A stretch of DNA of 8,594 nucleotides, taken from NCBI GenBank assembly GCA_031275035.1, contig JAISPH010000186.1, forward strand, positions 1 to 8,594, given 5' to 3'. Source of the DNA: Treponema sp. (GTDB lineage Bacteria > Spirochaetota > Spirochaetia > Treponematales > Breznakiellaceae). Positions within the stretch are counted from its first letter, which is position 1; the number at the start of each line of letters is the position of its first letter. The translations under genes were made by a program, and so were the position numbers. Below, piece after piece: positions 1,938 through 8,594 of this stretch. Below the pieces are notes generated by a model. That model saw nothing but the letters and a program-made list of their open reading frames with translations, searched no databases and had not been told where the DNA came from.

Positions 1938-4900
1938 ATGAATACCTTATCTTTTCCTGAATTTCTGAAGCGTATGACCCCCTCGGAGGGGATTTCCGGC
2001 TTTATTTCGGCCGTTTGCGGAACCGGCGGCCGGGCCGGCAATGCCCGGAATTCCGGCGCGGAAGGCTTTCCCCTGGAAGTAGAAGGAGCCGAGGGGGCCT
2101 TTACGGCTCTGCTTTTGGCCGTCCTTTACAGGCGCCGTCCCGGCTCCTATCTGGCGGTGGTCGCCACCGAGCGGGAGGCCCAGGATCTGGCCTCGGATCT
2201 GGCCGCCGCGGAGCTTCCGGCGGCCCTTTTTCCCTGGTGGGGGACTATGCCCTACCGGGAAATGGCCCCCCTTTCGGCGGTTTTTGGCGAGCGGTCCAAG
2301 GTCCTCAGCGCCCTTGCCGCGGGAAGCCCCGGAATCACCGTGGTCCCGGAACGGGCCCTCCTGACTCCCCTGCCGCCCCCCGCTTATATCCGTTCCCTTC
2401 TCCTCCCCCTGTATCCCGGCGGGGCCATCGATCCTGCGGCCCTGGCGAAAACCCTCACCGGTTACGGCTATACCAGGGTTCCCAGGGTCCAGCTCCACGG
2501 CGAATTCGCCCTCCGGGGGGAGGTGCTGGACATTTTTATGGGGGGAGACGACGATGCCTGCCGTATCCTCTTTGATTTTAATGTGATTGAACATATCAAA
2601 CGTTTCGATCCCGGGGATCAGAGTACCGGCCGTGAAAAGATTGACCGGCTGATAATCCGGCCCTTAAAGGAAGTGATCTGGTCCGATGAACGTATCGAGG
2701 TTTTAAGCCGCCGCCTTGAGGAATGCGCCGAATTTACCCCCCGGGGCAGGACCGCGGCGCTGGAAGAGCTTATTGCCCGGAGAAGCGCCGCCGGGGAGGA
2801 ACTTTTCTTTCCCCTGGCCTTTGAAACTCCCGCGGTCCTGCCGGATTACCTGAACGCGGGTCCGGCTGCGGGGGAACGGGGCGGCGCTTCCCCGGAGGCC
2901 GTGATCTTCTATATTGACCGGGAACGGCTGGAAAACGCCCAGGAAAGCCTGGAACGGGAATACCGGGGACTTTACAACAGGGCCCGCCGCAGTACGGACG
3001 ATGCGGGCAGCGCCATCCATGGCAGCGCCGTCCGTAGCGGCGTTATCCGCCGCGGCGCCATCCACGGCGGCGTTCCTTTCCCGGACCGGGAATTTCCCGC
3101 CCCGGAACGGATACTGCTTAACTTTAATGAAGTGGCGGACCGTTTTCCCCGGAGCGTCTCCTTTATGACCATCAAGAAGGACGGGGAGAGCCGCCGTCTG
3201 CGCCTTCCCTGCGATCCCCCCCGGAGCTTTTTCGGCAATATCGATTACCTCAAGGAGGAATTCGCCTCCCTTGCCGCGCAGGGCTGGGAAATTACGGTGG
3301 CCGCCGAATCGGAGATGCAGGCGGAGCGGATTGGCCTGCTGCTCCAGGATCTGTCCGCCGAAGCGCCATCCATGGCGGCGCCATCCGTGGCGGCGGCGGG
3401 GAAGCCGGGGGCCGGGGTAAAAGCCGCGGGGGTATCGGTTATGGCGGTTCCCCTCTCCGCGGGCTTTGCCCTGCCGGACGTCAAATTCATGGTGGTCCAG
3501 GAAAACGAGATTTTTAGCCGGCGCAGACGGCCTCCCCGTTCCCTGAAGCAGATACGGAGCAGTCCCATCGACACCTTTGTAGAGCTTAATCCCGGAGATT
3601 ATGTGGTTCATGTCAATTACGGCATAGGCCTTTTTAAGGGGATTGAACGGATCCGGACCCTGGGGCACGAACGGGATTATGTCAAGCTGGAGTATCTGGG
3701 GGAGGAGGTGGTCTTTGTCCCGATTGAGCAGGTTAATCTGGTTCAGCGTTATATCGGGAACGAGGGCTCTCCGCCCCGGCTGGACAAGCTGGGGTCCAAG
3801 AGCTGGGAAAACCGGAAGGGCCGGGTCCGGCAGTCCGTGGAAGAGATTGCCGAAAAGCTCATCCTCCTCTACTCCAAGCGGAAACAGGCTCGGGGCTTTG
3901 CCTTTCCCCAGGACACCGAATGGCAGACCGTTTTTGAGGCAAACTTTCCCTTTGAGGAAACCGGGGATCAGCTTCGCTGCGTGGAGGAGATCAAGGCGGA
4001 CATGGAAAGCCCCCATCCCATGGACCGGCTGGTCTGCGGGGACGTAGGCTACGGTAAAACCGAGGTAGCGGTCCGGGCCTGTTTCAAGGCGGTCATGGGG
4101 GGAAAGCAGGTCGCCTTTCTGGCCCCCACCACGATCCTGGCGGAACAGCACTACGAAAATTTCCAGGAACGGTTTTCCCAGTTTCCGGTATGCCTGGGGA
4201 TGCTCTCCCGTTTTGTGGACCGTAAAACGGCGAAGCGGACCCTGGAGCAGGCGAGGCGGGGCGAAATCGACATCCTGGTGGGAACCCACCGGATCATCCA
4301 GAAGGACGTGGTCTTTAAGGATCTGGGCCTCATGGTGATCGACGAAGAGCAGCGTTTTGGCGTTAAGGACAAGGAACGGCTCAAGGAGATGAAGACCAAC
4401 GTGGACTGCCTTACCCTCAGCGCCACCCCCATACCCCGGACCCTCCACATGAGCCTCCTTAAAATCCGGGACATGAGCCTCCTCGCCACCCCTCCCCAGA
4501 ACCGCCATCCCATCGAAACAGTTATTGAAGAGTGGAACGAGGAACGGCTTGCCGCGGCCATCCGGGCCGAGGCGGAACGGGGGGGCCAGGTCTTCTTTCT
4601 CCATAACCGGGTGGAGAGCCTTAACGAAACCCGGATTAAGATTGAACGCCTGGTCCCGGAGATGCTGGTAGACACTGCCCACGGCCAGATGGACGGCCGG
4701 GATCTGGAGGATGTGATGCACCGCTTTATCCATGGGGGGTTCCATGTGCTGGTTTCTACCACTATCATCGAGAACGGCATCGACATCCCCAATGTAAATA
4801 CCATCATCATTGACCGGGCGGATATGTACGGGGTGTCCCAGCTCTACCAGCTCCGGGGACGGGTGGGGCGTTCCGACCGGGTGGCCTATGCGTACCTCTT

Positions 4901-5579
4901 TTATCCCCGGGAACGGGCCCTTTCGGAGCTGGCCATAAAGCGGCTTCAGGTTATTTCGGACTTTACCGAGCTGGGATCGGGGTTTAAAATCGCTATGAAG
5001 GATATGGAGATCCGGGGAGCGGGGAATCTTCTGGGGCGGGAGCAGTCCGGGGACATCTACTCGGTGGGCTTCGACCTTTACCTGCGCCTCCTGGACGACG
5101 CTGTACGGCGGCTGGAGGATGAACATTACGAGGCGGATATCGAGACCCTCCTGGAACTGGAATATTCCGGGTTTATCCCGGAGGGCTATATCGATTCGGC
5201 CCAGGAAAAGATGGAGTTCTACAAGAAGATAGCCTCCATCAGGGACAAGGAGAAGCTGGAGCGGGTCTACGGGGAACTGCTGGACCGTTTCGGCCCCCTG
5301 CCGGACGAGGCCGCTTCCCTTTTGTCCCTGGCGGAGATCCGCATTATTTGCCGGGAGATCGCCGTTTCCTCCTTGAAAGAACGGGGCGGAGTCGTTAGGG
5401 TGGAATTTGGAAAGCTGTCCAGGGTGAATGTGGATCGTCTGGTCAGGCTGATACAGGAGAGCAGCGGCAGGGTAAAGCTTGATCCCCGGCGGCCCAATAT
5501 CTTGATCCTGGAGACGGGCAGCATCGGCCTGAAGGAAAAGAGCGAATTTATCAGAGAGAAACTGGCGGCTTTAGTATAA
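1938..5579 (+). CDS. mfd: Transcription-repair coupling factor Mfd
   Basis: Mfd is the DNA translocase that removes RNA polymerase stalled at lesions and recruits UvrA for nucleotide excision repair. All parts are visible in 1213 residues (about 1150 is usual). The UvrB-like N-terminal module covers about 1-345, with FPWWGTMPYREM at 99-110 and LRGEVLDIF at 192-200. The RNA polymerase interaction domain covers about 550-610, with PGDYVVHVNYGIG from 552. The superfamily 2 motor follows: Walker A GDVGYGKTE at 701-709, the DEEQ box at 802-805, SATPIPRT from 828, and QLRGRVGR around 971-978. The C-terminal TRCF domain begins near 1075. All key motor residues are present, so the protein looks functional. 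The extra length lies largely between 350 and 510, where two patches of a 15-bp repeat occur (3010-3069 and 3363-3392). It is the first gene of an operon with a HAD phosphatase and PlsC. The ATG lacks a strong Shine-Dalgarno. Confidence 0.98.
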   Translation: MNTLSFPEFLKRMTPSEGISGFISAVCGTGGRAGNARNSGAEGFPLEVEGAEGAFTALLLAVLYRRRPGSYLAVVATEREAQDLASDLAAAELPAALFPWWGTMPYREMAPLSAVFGERSKVLSALAAGSPGITVVPERALLTPLPPPAYIRSLLLPLYPGGAIDPAALAKTLTGYGYTRVPRVQLHGEFALRGEVLDIFMGGDDDACRILFDFNVIEHIKRFDPGDQSTGREKIDRLIIRPLKEVIWSDERIEVLSRRLEECAEFTPRGRTAALEELIARRSAAGEELFFPLAFETPAVLPDYLNAGPAAGERGGASPEAVIFYIDRERLENAQESLEREYRGLYNRARRSTDDAGSAIHGSAVRSGVIRRGAIHGGVPFPDREFPAPERILLNFNEVADRFPRSVSFMTIKKDGESRRLRLPCDPPRSFFGNIDYLKEEFASLAAQGWEITVAAESEMQAERIGLLLQDLSAEAPSMAAPSVAAAGKPGAGVKAAGVSVMAVPLSAGFALPDVKFMVVQENEIFSRRRRPPRSLKQIRSSPIDTFVELNPGDYVVHVNYGIGLFKGIERIRTLGHERDYVKLEYLGEEVVFVPIEQVNLVQRYIGNEGSPPRLDKLGSKSWENRKGRVRQSVEEIAEKLILLYSKRKQARGFAFPQDTEWQTVFEANFPFEETGDQLRCVEEIKADMESPHPMDRLVCGDVGYGKTEVAVRACFKAVMGGKQVAFLAPTTILAEQHYENFQERFSQFPVCLGMLSRFVDRKTAKRTLEQARRGEIDILVGTHRIIQKDVVFKDLGLMVIDEEQRFGVKDKERLKEMKTNVDCLTLSATPIPRTLHMSLLKIRDMSLLATPPQNRHPIETVIEEWNEERLAAAIRAEAERGGQVFFLHNRVESLNETRIKIERLVPEMLVDTAHGQMDGRDLEDVMHRFIHGGFHVLVSTTIIENGIDIPNVNTIIIDRADMYGVSQLYQLRGRVGRSDRVAYAYLFYPRERALSELAIKRLQVISDFTELGSGFKIAMKDMEIRGAGNLLGREQSGDIYSVGFDLYLRLLDDAVRRLEDEHYEADIETLLELEYSGFIPEGYIDSAQEKMEFYKKIASIRDKEKLERVYGELLDRFGPLPDEAASLLSLAEIRIICREIAVSSLKERGGVVRVEFGKLSRVNVDRLVRLIQESSGRVKLDPRRPNILILETGSIGLKEKSEFIREKLAALV
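3010..3069 (+). repeat. Four tandem copies of a 15-bp near-palindromic unit inside mfd
   Basis: The four units start at 3010, 3025, 3040 and 3055 and fit the consensus GCGCCATCCRYGGCG, the third being the most diverged. The best unit holds 6-bp inverted arms (CGCCAT and ATGGCG) around a CC centre. Fifteen bases equal five codons, so the array keeps the mfd frame. Here it is read in the phase giving AIHG-, AVRS-, VIRR- and AIHG-type repeats (residues 358-378), in the variable stretch between the UvrB-like module and the next domain. Mfd proteins normally have no such repeat here, so this is probably a lineage-specific expansion in a tolerant loop. Confidence 0.75.
3363..3392 (+). repeat. Second patch of the same 15-bp unit in mfd, read in another codon phase
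   Basis: Two tandem units (3363-3377 and 3378-3392) match the first two units of the 3010 patch closely: over about 34 bases that include the flanking AG, only three positions differ. Unlike the first patch, the units here align with codon boundaries and encode APSMA-APSVA (residues 476-485), followed by an Ala/Gly-rich loop to about residue 500. The same DNA therefore yields unrelated peptides at the two sites, which points to spread or selection at the DNA level rather than a conserved peptide. Confidence 0.7.
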
Positions 5580-5590
5580 GGAGCAGTTAC

Positions 5591-6229
5591 ATGAGTGAAG
5601 AATGGGGAACCGGGGGCAAGATCAAGGCGGCGGCGTTTGATTATGGAAAGGTTATTTCCTTTCCGCCCGAAGACAAGGCCAGGGAGGAAATAGCCGCCCT
5701 GGGAGGGATAGAGCTTTCCGTTCTGGACGAACTGGACGGCCGGTACCGGGGGGAGCATGACCGGGGCGTTCTCTCCGGGGTGGATTTCTATAAAACCATC
5801 CTTACCAAGGCGGGCAGGGACGGGGACGAGGTCGCCGCCAGGCGGATGCTGGAGGCGGATCTGCAGAGCTGGACCCGTATCAATCCCGCTACGGTAAAGC
5901 TGATGGAGGATCTGAAAGCCGCGGGACTCAAGCTGGGGATACTCTCCAATATGCCCCATGAATTTTTGGCCATGGCCCGGAAGCAGTTTCCGGTCTTTAA
6001 GATCCCCGATGCGGGAATCTACTCCTGCGAGGCCGGTTTTATAAAGCCCGAGGACGGAATCTACGAGGCCCTCTTCGCCGCCCTGGGCTGTTCCCCCTAT
6101 GAGATTATTTTTGTGGATGATATACGCGCCAATGTGGAAGCGGCCCGGATCCTCGGCATGAACGCCTTTGTCTGGAAGGATGCGGAGGCCGCCCGGGAGT
6201 TGTTCATCAAACTGGAGATCCCCCTGTAG
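5591..6229 (+). CDS. HAD-superfamily (subfamily IA, YihX-like) phosphatase
   Basis: This 212-residue cytoplasmic hydrolase carries the HAD signature motifs in order. Motif I is FDYGKV with nucleophile Asp17; position 19 is Gly rather than the usual second Asp, as in YihX-type members with DxGxV. A small cap follows at about residues 22-95. Motif II is LGILSN with Ser119, motif III is the lysine of GFIKPEDGIY (Lys152), and motif IV is IFVDD with Asp176 and Asp177. The C-terminal half resembles YihX/sugar-phosphate phosphatases most, so dephosphorylation of a small phosphorylated metabolite via an aspartyl-phosphate is likely; the substrate cannot be read from sequence. The ATG lies 11 bases after the mfd stop, and its Shine-Dalgarno AAGGAG (5578-5583) overlaps that stop codon, so it is probably co-transcribed and coupled with mfd. 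Confidence 0.88.
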   Translation: MSEEWGTGGKIKAAAFDYGKVISFPPEDKAREEIAALGGIELSVLDELDGRYRGEHDRGVLSGVDFYKTILTKAGRDGDEVAARRMLEADLQSWTRINPATVKLMEDLKAAGLKLGILSNMPHEFLAMARKQFPVFKIPDAGIYSCEAGFIKPEDGIYEALFAALGCSPYEIIFVDDIRANVEAARILGMNAFVWKDAEAARELFIKLEIPL

Positions 6230-6250: not shown

Positions 6251-6988
6251 ATGTTTAAGACCGTGGTTCTCTTTTCAATCCTGGGATTGAGTATGGTAAT
6301 CTGTATCCCCCTGGGGCTGGCGGCCCTTCTGCTGAGCCTTTTGGGCCTGGGAAGACCCATGGGCTTTATTATTTACAAGGTGGCCCAGGGCTGGGCTTGG
6401 CTCCTGATATGGGGAACCGGCTGTTCCCTCTCCGCAGAGGGCATGGAGCGCATCCCCCGGAAGGGCAGTCTCTGTATCGCCGCAAACCATCAGAGTATTT
6501 TTGACATACTCCTGGCCCTGGCCCTGGTGGGCCGGCCCTTCGGATTTATCGCCAAAAAAGAACTGGCCCTGATCCCCCTTCTTAATATATGGATACTGCT
6601 TTTGGGGGGGCTCTTTATAGACCGGAAGAATACCCGCAGGGCCCTGGCCACCATCAACAAAGGCATAGAACGTATACGGAAGGGGGGCGCCATGATCGTC
6701 TTCCCCGAAGGAACCCGGAGTAAAGGCCGGGGGCTGCTGCCCTTTAAGCCGGGCTCCCTGAAACTGGCCGCCAGGTCCGGCGCCCGGGTGGTGCCCATGG
6801 CGATTGCGGGAAGCTACGATGTTTTTGAAAAGACCTACCGGGTCCGGGCGGCGCCGGTCCGGGTGGTTTTTTTACCGGCCATCGACACCGCCGCCCTGTC
6901 TGCGGAGGACAGGAAGCGGAACCTGGCGGATCAGGTATGCCGGGTAATTGCGGAGACCCTGGGCGAAAAGCCGTCCGGCCCTGTTTGA
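6251..6988 (+). CDS. plsC: 1-acyl-sn-glycerol-3-phosphate acyltransferase (PlsC family)
   Basis: PlsC enzymes transfer a fatty acyl group to the sn-2 position of lysophosphatidic acid, giving phosphatidic acid for membrane lipids. The 245-residue protein has a strongly hydrophobic N-terminus (about residues 5-32) that should anchor it in the inner membrane. The acyltransferase motifs follow: NHQSIFD with the catalytic His80-x4-Asp85 pair, GGLFIDR at 119-125, the substrate-binding FPEGTRS at 151-157, and VPMAI at 181-185. Length and motif spacing are normal for the family. A good Shine-Dalgarno GAGGAAGG (6237-6244) precedes the ATG, which is 21 bases beyond the HAD gene stop, so it is the last gene of the mfd operon. 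A relative using another lysophospholipid acceptor is possible. Confidence 0.92.
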   Translation: MFKTVVLFSILGLSMVICIPLGLAALLLSLLGLGRPMGFIIYKVAQGWAWLLIWGTGCSLSAEGMERIPRKGSLCIAANHQSIFDILLALALVGRPFGFIAKKELALIPLLNIWILLLGGLFIDRKNTRRALATINKGIERIRKGGAMIVFPEGTRSKGRGLLPFKPGSLKLAARSGARVVPMAIAGSYDVFEKTYRVRAAPVRVVFLPAIDTAALSAEDRKRNLADQVCRVIAETLGEKPSGPV

Positions 6989-7024
6989 AAGAAGAATCTA
7001 ACCACGAACGGCGGGGATGACGCC

Positions 7025-7048
7025 GGGCGCGATAGCGCCCATTTTAAT
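7025..7048 (+). terminator. Rho-independent terminator of the mfd-HAD-plsC operon
   Basis: A perfect 6-bp GC stem (GGGCGC at 7025-7030, GCGCCC at 7035-7040) closes a GATA loop and is followed directly by ATTTTAAT. It lies 36 bases after the plsC stop, where an operon terminator is expected. The T tract is short, so strength is uncertain. Confidence 0.65.
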
Positions 7049-7107
7049 CCATACCTTTCGGAAAACGACCCGAAGGATCGTATGCCGCCGGCACGAACAG
7101 GAGAAGG

Positions 7108-7572
7108 ATGAGGCGTTTACCGGCGGGTCCGGCCTTTACCGGGGAAGAGGGGCGATATATACGCATTATGTCTATATGCGGGCGGGTGGTGATATATACG
7201 CAATGCGTCTATTTCCGGGGTTGGGCCGATATATACGAACTGCGTTTATACGCCGGGCAGGCGGATGTAACACGTATTCGTTTTATTTCCGGGGAAGAGT
7301 GGGGAGTGGCGGGTCCGGGACGATATATACGCAATACGTCTATAGGCGGGACGGGCGAATGTAACACGTATTCGCTTTACTTCCGGGCAGGGCCAGTTAA
7401 ACGAACTGCGGCTATATGCGGCGGGGCGGCGATATATACGAACTGCGTTTATAGGCGGTGTTGGGGGGATATATACGAAGTGCGTATACATACCGGGGCG
7501 GGGGTGATTATACGCAATACGTCTATACGCCGGACAGACGGGATATATACGAACTGCGTCTATATGCGCTGA
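7108..7572 (+). CDS. Doubtful open frame of 154 codons running through the tandem repeat array
   Basis: An ATG at 7108 has AGGAG 4 bases upstream and opens a 154-codon frame, most of which is the 36-37-bp repeat array. The peptide is rich in Tyr, Ile, Arg and Cys and cycles through three unrelated repeat motifs (types like RYIRIMSI, VIYTQCVY and DIYELRLY), because 37-bp units shift the phase by one base each time. No one peptide motif is maintained, base composition differs from the neighbouring genes, and no family is recognisable. It is therefore probably an accident of repeats that carry few stops in forward frames. I list it because the frame is intact and has a possible ribosome binding site. 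Confidence 0.15.
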   Translation: MRRLPAGPAFTGEEGRYIRIMSICGRVVIYTQCVYFRGWADIYELRLYAGQADVTRIRFISGEEWGVAGPGRYIRNTSIGGTGECNTYSLYFRAGPVKRTAAICGGAAIYTNCVYRRCWGDIYEVRIHTGAGVIIRNTSIRRTDGIYTNCVYMR

Positions 7573-7696
7573 GGTGGTGATATATACGCAATGCGTCTAT
7601 TTCCGGGGCAGGGCCGATTATACGAATTACGTCTATATGCGTTGAAACGGCGATTATACGAATTGCGTATATATACCGGCAGGGCGCGGGGCGGGT
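7154..7696 (+). repeat. Tandem array of about 14 degenerate 36-37-bp dyad units
   Basis: Units begin at 7154, 7191, 7228, 7264, 7322, 7358, 7395, 7431, 7468, 7506, 7542, 7579, 7616 and 7652. Most are 36-38 bp; the fourth is 58 bp. A typical unit opens with GATATATACGCAATGCGTCT and continues into TATA, forming an imperfect dyad whose centre ACGCAATGCGT is palindromic apart from its middle base. A G-rich tail of about 12-15 bases on the plus strand follows (such as GCGGGCGGGTGGT). Units 4 and 6 carry a variant head, GTAACACGTATTCG. There are no unique spacers, so this is not a CRISPR array. It fills the gap between two convergent terminators. Function is unknown; candidates are a protein-binding array, a structural DNA element, or a satellite-like expansion. 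Confidence 0.85.
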
Positions 7697-7710
7697 AGAT
7701 GCGCAGGCGC

Positions 7711-7736
7711 AAAAGCCCCCGGCCAATGCCGGGGGC
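7711..7736 (-). terminator. Rho-independent terminator of the BspA-like gene
   Basis: A perfect 9-bp stem (GCCCCCGGC at 7715-7723 and GCCGGGGGC at 7728-7736) closes a 4-base loop. On the minus strand it is followed by TTTT (7714-7711). It starts 9 bases after the TAG of the minus-strand repeat-protein gene. The plus-strand tail is CGCTTTG, so weak bidirectional action is possible. Confidence 0.8.
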
Positions 7737-7745
7737 CGCTTTGCT

Positions 7746-8279
7746 CTACTCCCGCCAGTTCGCGTCTATCGATGTATAGTCGCTCCATACCCCGCCGCTG
7801 GGGCCGAAGGTATCCATGTCGCTGCCTGGCGCGGTGTTGCCGTTAATGATGTTTGTTGCGGTCCTGGTCTGCGAAGCCGCGCCGCTTCCCAGCTTGAAGG
7901 TGTATTGAAACGCATTGCTCCCCAAAGAAGCGGGTCTTGGAAACGTAAAGACCCCATTAACCAGGAACGCTGCGCCATCGCAGCCGGAGAACATACCGGA
8001 GGCGAAGCTGTCGCCCGCTGCCGTAATGTTCCGGGGCAGATTAAAGACATTATTCATGGTGAACGCTGCGCCGTTGCAGCCGATGAACATAGCGTCGGCG
8101 AAGCGGTCGCCCCCCGCGGCGACGCTGTCCCAGGCGGGGGAAAACCCGAAGCGTGGCCCCATGGTAAACGCGGGGTTTTGGCTGCCGGAAAACGTATAGG
8201 CCCATTCCCAGTCCGGCGCCGTGCCGCCGTTTAGCTGGGCCCGGGTACGGGTCATCAGGGGCTCCAGCGGCGAATCCAC
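7746..8279 (-). pseudogene. C-terminal part of a BspA/DUF285-like repeat surface protein (frameshifted gene)
   Basis: The frame gives 177 residues from a GTG at 8279 to a TAG at 7746. It contains about three repeats of 32-34 residues: a diverged one near 25-58, then 59-90 (FADAMFIGCNGAAFTMNNVF) and 91-122 (FASGMFSGCDGAAFLVNGVF). Each has an aromatic-x-x-x-MF-x-GC core followed by a hydrophobic strand and Pro. These resemble the MFxxC-type repeats of BspA/DUF285 surface proteins, used by host-associated bacteria for adhesion or surface display. A non-repeat tail ends in WRE. The GTG is not a convincing start: there is no signal peptide, and protein-like sequence continues upstream in another frame. 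I read this as the 3' part of a longer gene broken by a frameshift near 8283-8288. It ends 9 bases before a strong terminator. Confidence 0.6.
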
Positions 8280-8443
8280 GGAAACTTATTAGCCTGGGCG
8301 TTTGCCCCATTGGTATTATCACTAAACCCAAAGGCCCCAAGCCACGCATCCTCGGACCCGGCGGGCTTGATGGTGATCCTATAGGTCCCGGCGGCAGTAT
8401 AGGTATGGCCGATACCATTGTCATTCTCCCCGCCATTCCGGCT
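8280..8443 (-). pseudogene. Upstream fragment of the same BspA-like gene, in a shifted frame
   Basis: In the frame offset by one base from the 3' part, the minus strand encodes a Gly/Asn-rich linker (SRNGGENDNGIG) followed by a beta-like module with HTYTAAGTYRITIKPAGSED and then AWLGAFGFSDNTNGANAQ. This reads as ordinary protein and ends around NKF at 8282-8290, where the downstream frame takes over with VSVDSPLEPLMTRTRAQL. Adding one base in AATAAGTTTCC would join the two into one protein. An in-frame TAA at 8444-8446 cuts this segment off from anything upstream. Either the gene is decaying or the sequence has errors; the 5' end lies beyond the window. Confidence 0.5.
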
Positions 8444-8512
8444 TTAGCCCCTGTTGTTCCGGCCTTGCCCCCCGGCGTCCGGCAAGCGGAAGCAAAACGG
8501 CCCCGGCAGAAC

Positions 8513-8565
8513 ATCTGAAAGCGGTCCGCCCCTTGGGGGCTTCGGTCAAGTGTCCGCTTTCAGAT
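8513..8565. repeat. 53-bp inverted-repeat structure with a nested hairpin
   Basis: Perfect 12-bp terminal arms, ATCTGAAAGCGG (8513-8524) and CCGCTTTCAGAT (8554-8565), enclose 29 bases that contain a second hairpin, GCCCC-TTG-GGGGC (8528-8540). The rest of 8444-8594 holds no intact gene. On the minus strand a Gly-rich frame (SRNGSGPGG) enters from the right edge, and every frame that continues the BspA-like gene is interrupted here. It could be a small palindromic (REP- or MITE-like) insertion or a structured RNA element. No target duplication is evident. Confidence 0.55.
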
Positions 8566-8594
8566 AACCCGCCCGGGCCGCTGCCGTTCCGGCT

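Follow-up and report, generated by a model that had tools for sequence, protein, structure and literature searches.

What is the regular run of dyads that occupies the space between two genes in a contig of Treponema sp. (JAISPH010000186.1), and what has kept its sequence? The window, by which we mean the whole stretch of DNA analysed, is 8,594 nucleotides long. A first-pass annotation had described about 14 dyad-containing units of 36-37 bp between convergent terminators, and had proposed a nucleoid-protein or segregation site, a topological buffer between convergent operons, or a satellite. The genes and hairpins that frame the array are the following.

1938-5579, + strand: mfd (TIGR00580, above cut-off).
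5591-6229, + strand: gene of a HAD-type hydrolase.
6251..6988, + strand: acyltransferase gene, the upstream neighbour of the array (PF01553; TIGR00530, 1-acylglycerol-3-phosphate O-acyltransferase).
7025..7040, + strand: terminator-like hairpin followed by ATTTT, 3' of the acyltransferase gene (terminator scan).
7715..7736, minus strand: GC-rich hairpin and four T on the minus strand, a possible terminator of the minus-strand ORF (by eye).
7746..8279, minus strand: convergent ORF downstream of the array, surface-protein-like by eye (ORF list).

The convergent arrangement stands by ORF order, the + strand gene ending at 6988 and the minus-strand ORF covering 7746-8279. The flanking terminators do not fare as well: a terminator scan of 6900-7800 returned a single call (7025-7040, + strand) against a shuffle average of 0.9, hence not above expectation, and made no call at the right-hand hairpin. 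The ORF at 7746..8279 gave no Pfam or NCBIfam match; the surface-protein-like reading (7746-8500, minus strand) seemingly extends upstream in another frame, and the gene may be broken. A protein-coding array was rejected, as units of 36-37 bases (one of 58) shift the frame and the ORF at 7108-7572, which has no Pfam match, stops inside the array. Rfam returned two matches in the window at E <= 1 (8490-8586 and 4020-4200), neither in the array and both attributed to chance (they score 38 and 33 bits, where the gathering thresholds are 80 and 196).

Several familiar kinds of array were set aside on these surroundings. As the first-pass annotation had stated, no cas or initiator gene was found nearby, among the seven distinct ORFs scanned of the 31 listed (Pfam or NCBIfam). 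A CRISPR is further disfavoured by the divergence of the units and by their G-rich tails; matches to the Cas3 helicase inside Mfd fell below cut-offs. Plasmid or phage iterons and centromere arrays were discarded in view of the chromosome-type order mfd-HAD-acyltransferase and because no similar DNA turned up among 50,697 records of phages and 72,556 of plasmids. The earlier judgement that CRISPR and iteron explanations lack support therefore agrees with the scanned ORFs, the phage and plasmid records and the gene order. Two stretches in viral contigs were both AT-rich runs of TACGTA type, unrelated by eye.

The array itself is a real run of 14 homologous, near-palindromic units between two genes, the number previously claimed being recovered by cutting at the core. 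Its parts read as follows.

7149..7690, + strand: tandem array of 14 dyad units, 12 of type A and 2 of type B (TRF, cutting by core, direct reading).
7152..7258, + strand: type A units 1-3, anchors 7155, 7192 and 7229.
7262..7295, + strand: type B unit, anchor 7265; the G-rich tail after it is longer.
7320..7352, + strand: type A unit, anchor 7323.
7356..7389, + strand: type B unit, anchor 7359.
7392..7681, + strand: eight type A units, anchors 7395, 7432, 7469, 7506, 7543, 7580, 7616 and 7652.

TRF reported periods of 36, 37, 74 and 111. Among the 13 unit spacings, seven are of 37 bases and five of 36, so the period of 36-37 bp given in the first-pass annotation applies to 12 of them and fails for one spacing of 58. 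That annotation had also treated all units as one type, which suits 12 of them. These type A units read ATATATACG-n5-CGTCTATAT, while the two at 7265 and 7359 form a distinct type B, ATGTAACACG-n4-CGTTTTAT or CGCTTTAC, which has the GAT start and the CCGGG end in common with type A and differs in the dyad. The core pattern TA.ACG.A.T.CG..TA occurs 11 times in the array, against a mean of 0.0 in 2000 mononucleotide shuffles. Units 7192 and 7580 are identical at 32 of 33 positions, which points to a block duplication inside the array.

Sequence is not kept evenly along the unit. Across the 12 type A units, the 23-base dyad carries 1.19 bits of information per column and the flanks 0.74, and the mean pairwise identity, corrected for composition, falls from 0.77 in the core to 0.20 in the 3' tail and 0.08 on the 5' side. 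The dyad head is thus indeed better kept than the G-rich tails, as had been noticed at first reading; part of this contrast could stem from faster mutation or gene conversion of the tails. The reported G-rich strand asymmetry is equally real (180 G against 104 C in 547 bases). A G-quadruplex reading was abandoned, since the scan found one non-overlapping G3 motif, on the + strand (mean of 0.06 in mononucleotide shuffles), too few to build on.

The same A and B units recur at unrelated loci of a second genome, the draft of Treponema sp. Im510_bin16 (hereafter the congener, G001), a metagenome-assembled genome which, from its name series, we take to be of termite gut origin. A scan of genome contigs for two dyads 8-25 bases apart returned 15 stretches, one of which, from the congener (L015), carries an array of 13 units with A and B mixed; the other 14 were dropped as unrelated by eye. 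The Mfd of the congener is 89% identical to that of the window over its full length, the best score of 195 family genomes (next, 76%), and the order mfd-HAD-acyltransferase is common to both. From 4855 to window base 6971 the two share 88.7% DNA identity; there the alignment ends, and the 6001 bases examined at the orthologous place showed no unit. Apart from that place, type A units lie at six loci of the congener, accompanied by type B units at three, and a seventh dyad follows a looser pattern. These loci, with contig handles and gene order, are listed here.

C17: 13 units, four of type B, in a divergent gap and 56 bases ahead of a gene start (ORF order).
C95: 6 units, including one degenerate and one of type B, in contact with an RlmM-like methyltransferase gene at its 3' end and bounded on the other side by the contig edge.
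C97: four units in the order A B A B, some 15 bases past the stop codon of a dehydrogenase-like gene and ahead of another + strand gene (co-directional).
C144: 3 units between a + strand ORF and a minus-strand DNA polymerase III alpha gene (convergent).
C51: one unit, upstream of a DUF5362 gene.
C92: one unit, upstream of an L-fucose mutarotase gene.
C122 (L145 947-1599): looser dyad, 54 bases upstream of an 82-aa ORF that is followed by a PemK/MazF-family gene (PF02452).

The C122 dyad was seen with the looser pattern only, and is absent from the listed matches of the covariance model described below. Its 82-aa ORF, which has no family match, and the PemK/MazF-family gene are arranged like a type II toxin-antitoxin pair. 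We also observed an imperfect long palindrome, ATCTGAAAGCGG ... CCGCTTTCAGAT, at 8479-8576 of the window, 86% identical in C97 (L059 2411-2513); the only exact-arm copy in the congener directly adjoins the C97 array. Other short tandem repeats of that genome, partly coding-like, are unrelated to the dyad (L057 1573-2025, L145 1-200, L015 7469-7617).

The recurrence of the dyad beyond this contig takes ground from both the idea that the array is unique to it and that of an assembly artefact. Two other suggestions made from the window did not survive the comparison. The first-pass annotation had pointed to a phasing of about 3.5 helical turns, which is not kept in the congener, where spacings are mostly 39-41 bases, nearly four turns. 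It had also raised a tie between arrays and convergent genes; the settings in the congener are co-directional (C97), divergent (C17), convergent (C144) or at a contig edge (C95). With no fixed gene setting there, a special role between convergent operons is left without support. The arrays at C17, C95, C97 and C144 are direct repeats at several, mostly intergenic, loci, as expected of STAR-type elements.

Beyond this pair of genomes, the unit is rare. A covariance model of the unit matched, at E <= 0.001, 4 of the 195 family genomes (G001, G090, G121 and G031). The congener accounts for 35 matches, or 27 distinct places once the reverse-strand matches of the palindrome are left out, and 3 of the 194 other family genomes have one match each, that of G031 showing no dyad by eye. 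In an order-wide sample of 390 genomes, two matched at E <= 1e-4, G001 and G090; the filters of both scans were strict, so that weak relatives can be missed. R1 at E <= 0.01 matched eight genomes in a chosen 40 of the 195; G001, G121, G090 and perhaps G142 look related by eye, and G031, G165, G115 and G122 were set aside by eye. Outside the congener, the family shows no enrichment of the looser pattern TANRCGNANTNCGYCTA (24 of 195 genomes, against about 78 for the reversed control), and the 12 matches of G003 are one identical word; operator-like single sites in other genomes can therefore not be claimed. Candidates in C188, G028, G156 and G177 were set aside as chance.

Some dyads of similar type were noted elsewhere. 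Two Candidatus Symbiothrix genomes (L006, L011) carry pairs of near-perfect GTATACGCANTGCGTATAC-type dyads about 35 bases apart. Six records from Blautia, Fusibacillus, Butyrivibrio and three named Lachnospiraceae (L003, L004, L005, L009, L013, L014) have paired dyads of the type TATACG.A.TCCGTATA around a promoter-like TTGAC...TATAAT stretch just before an ATG, and each of these pairs is perhaps an operator pair. A search of the open-access literature found no description of such repeats in termite-gut treponemes, and no paper on operator arrays.

Metagenome relatives bear on the number of units. Using read-through ORFs of arrays solely as protein-search probes for further arrays, we found five JGI metagenome ORFs with array motifs (P0001-P0005): P0001 has A motifs, and P0002, P0004 and P0005 have B as well as A. 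P0003 has flanks in common with the window read-through, by eye, both before the array (AAG.NRRR..RLPAGPAFTGEEG) and after it (GRARGG.MRR.KSPRPMPGAALL.YSRQ). From GEEG to GRARGG it measures 219 nt, with about 6 A motifs, against 525 nt in the window, so that the locus looks variable in unit number, as judged at the protein level from one relative. The comparison of unit number between relatives, suggested at the outset, thus gives apparently 14 against about 6 in this protein-level reading of P0003. The apparent difference in unit number, together with the absence of an array at the orthologous place of the congener, speaks against an essential segregation site.

The same observations would suit a neutral minisatellite, a slipped G-rich intergenic stretch whose dyad has no role. 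Copy number seemingly differs, a block has been duplicated inside the array, the congener has no array at the orthologous place, and nearly all of the 194 other family genomes are without the unit. Against it stand an excess identity of 0.77 in the core against 0.20 in the tail and the recurrence of that core in a second species, at unrelated loci and in single copies too. We regard this explanation as improbable.

If the core is constrained, the constraint could act on a folded strand or on the double helix. The unit is an imperfect palindrome, some 29 bp long and with a loop of 5 bases, and its 23-bp core is AT-rich; in the 12 type A units, 94 of 132 cells (71%) are complementary at the best axis and 65 of 144 (45%) at the next-best one. 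Covariation between the arms, the check proposed in the first-pass annotation, offered no support for conserved pairing. It was no better than shuffles in a MAFFT alignment of 34 units (31 distinct), which sets the type B units one base out of stem register. When the type B units were brought into register and G121 and G090 contributed further units (30 distinct rows), pairing between the arms came to 71.1%, a value reached by 2 of 1000 half-shuffles, the rows being related to each other. Pair changes on both sides numbered 7 among these 30 related rows, against a shuffled mean of 6.6, showing no excess. The re-registered test thus lends weak support to kept symmetry and none to compensating change, and the pairing fits a hairpin constraint as well as a dimeric protein.

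We considered on this basis an array of RNA or single-stranded DNA hairpins that would affect the flanking transcripts at their 3' ends, as terminator, stability element or roadblock. The window array does lie between the 3' ends of two genes, none of 100 shuffles equals the fold of its minus-strand RNA (z -2.84), and two units of the congener reach z -2.0 and -1.7 as single-stranded DNA. Against this, the + strand RNA folds no better than shuffles (z -0.93), two window units reach only z -1.3 and -0.9 as single-stranded DNA, the arms do not covary, and the C17 array is upstream of a gene start. This makes the hairpin explanation very unlikely.

A miniature mobile element of REP/REPIN or MITE kind is a different matter. 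Here a transposase would recognise the dyad as a single-stranded DNA hairpin or as inverted ends, and tandem arrays would be by-products of repeated insertion. A palindrome of this size and loop, present at six or seven mostly intergenic loci of the congener, is consistent with such an element. CCCTGTGGGG immediately precedes the first C97 unit and also occurs ahead of the second one of C17, and a CCCTGTGGGG-like start heads 25-bp inverted repeats in G142 (3 mismatches, 135 bp end to end). G121 has A-like dyads next to B-like half-arms at two loci, at one of which the next ORF start is that of a lipoprotein-like gene by eye. The G142 stretch is MITE-like (C88; L134 1563-1697) and starts CCCTGTGG.GAGATATA.

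Other observations argue the other way. The 2423 bases around the sole Y1 transposase found in the congener (C126, 163 aa, IS200-like by eye) contain no array dyad. No target-site duplication or clean empty site could be demonstrated, window and congener being unalignable at the insertion place. About 28 units in total are few for a REP family, and the units follow one another in direct order, an arrangement negligible for CGTC REPs and under-represented for GTAG REPs as they are described (PMC3733652). We therefore give this explanation a low probability, and retain it because the REPIN clusters of Pseudomonas fluorescens show palindromic mobile units in tandem (PMC3116915).

Taken together, these results indicate that the array is probably one locus of a lineage-specific, STAR-like interspersed repeat, non-coding and intergenic, which expands and contracts locally and whose constrained dyad is most likely a protein-binding site. 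Types A and B occur at differing positions in the congener, in direct tandem, with a dyad core that is kept and G-rich flanks that are kept much less. The family looks confined to a narrow group of Treponema-type spirochetes, and appears to belong to a known kind, that of interspersed, copy-variable intergenic repeats. Single dyad elements would reach new intergenic places by some dispersal step, and would then be multiplied and lost locally via replication slippage or unequal recombination. The core may be kept by a dimeric DNA-binding protein that recognises the dyad, rather than by an RNA hairpin, since the sequence is kept, asymmetric positions included, and compensating changes do not maintain the pairing. 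Neither a protein that binds the dyad nor a transposase or dispersal enzyme for it was identified.

A more specific proposal makes the dyad the operator or docking site of a dimeric DNA-binding protein of these spirochetes, with single sites acting near gene starts, arrays as multi-operator clusters serving as decoys or chromosome-organising sites, and A and B read by two related proteins; we put it forward tentatively, as an unlikely reading. The STAR-like interspersed repeat would add to the Treponema-type spirochetes a scattered family, apparently variable in copy number, and could be used to type uncultured strains. From the marked difference in conservation between dyad and tail follows a concrete, testable prediction, that of a binding protein; should it fail, the array would be an ordinary bacterial minisatellite.

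How does this family compare with described systems? In P. fluorescens SBW25, tandem REPIN/REP clusters accompany three RAYT genes and many REPs in the genome (PMC3116915). The array resembles these clusters in its ordered, tandem palindromic units at several places, and differs in that the search of the congener draft revealed no dyad-linked RAYT, its single Y1_Tnp match having no array dyad around it; a REPIN/RAYT system was accordingly rejected. CGTC and GTAG REPs are extragenic palindromes of 20-40 bp, and CGTC REPs are reported in five phyla including Spirochaetes, without a dedicated transposase (PMC3733652). Both kinds carry an unpaired tag outside the stem and mostly form head-to-head dimers; in CGTC REPs the stem measures 8-9 bp and the loop 4-5 bases (PMC3733652). 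The units of the array are likewise palindromic and extragenic; unlike these REPs, compared here by their description, they are in direct order with CGTC inside the right arm. A CGTC REP was dismissed by eye on that position, which, taken as the tag, leaves an 11-base loop.

The closest parallel is offered by the STAR elements of Staphylococcus, direct intergenic repeats in which a short conserved core alternates with a spacer, whose loci expand and contract at species-specific positions and whose function and dispersal are given as unknown (PMC3532100). Their core is a GC-rich 14-mer, T(G/A/T)TGTTG(G/T)GGCCC(C/A), and spacers are often nearly identical within a locus (PMC3532100). The array is not made of STAR elements proper, the unit consensus departing by eye from the 14-bp consensus: it has an AT-rich dyad of 23 bp as its core and the G-rich part as its variable spacer, there are two unit types, and it belongs to another phylum, with no sequence relation seen to the elements as described there (PMC3532100). 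As in STAR, the units are direct and tandem, the core is constrained, the loci differ between species and the number of units is apparently variable (PMC3532100).
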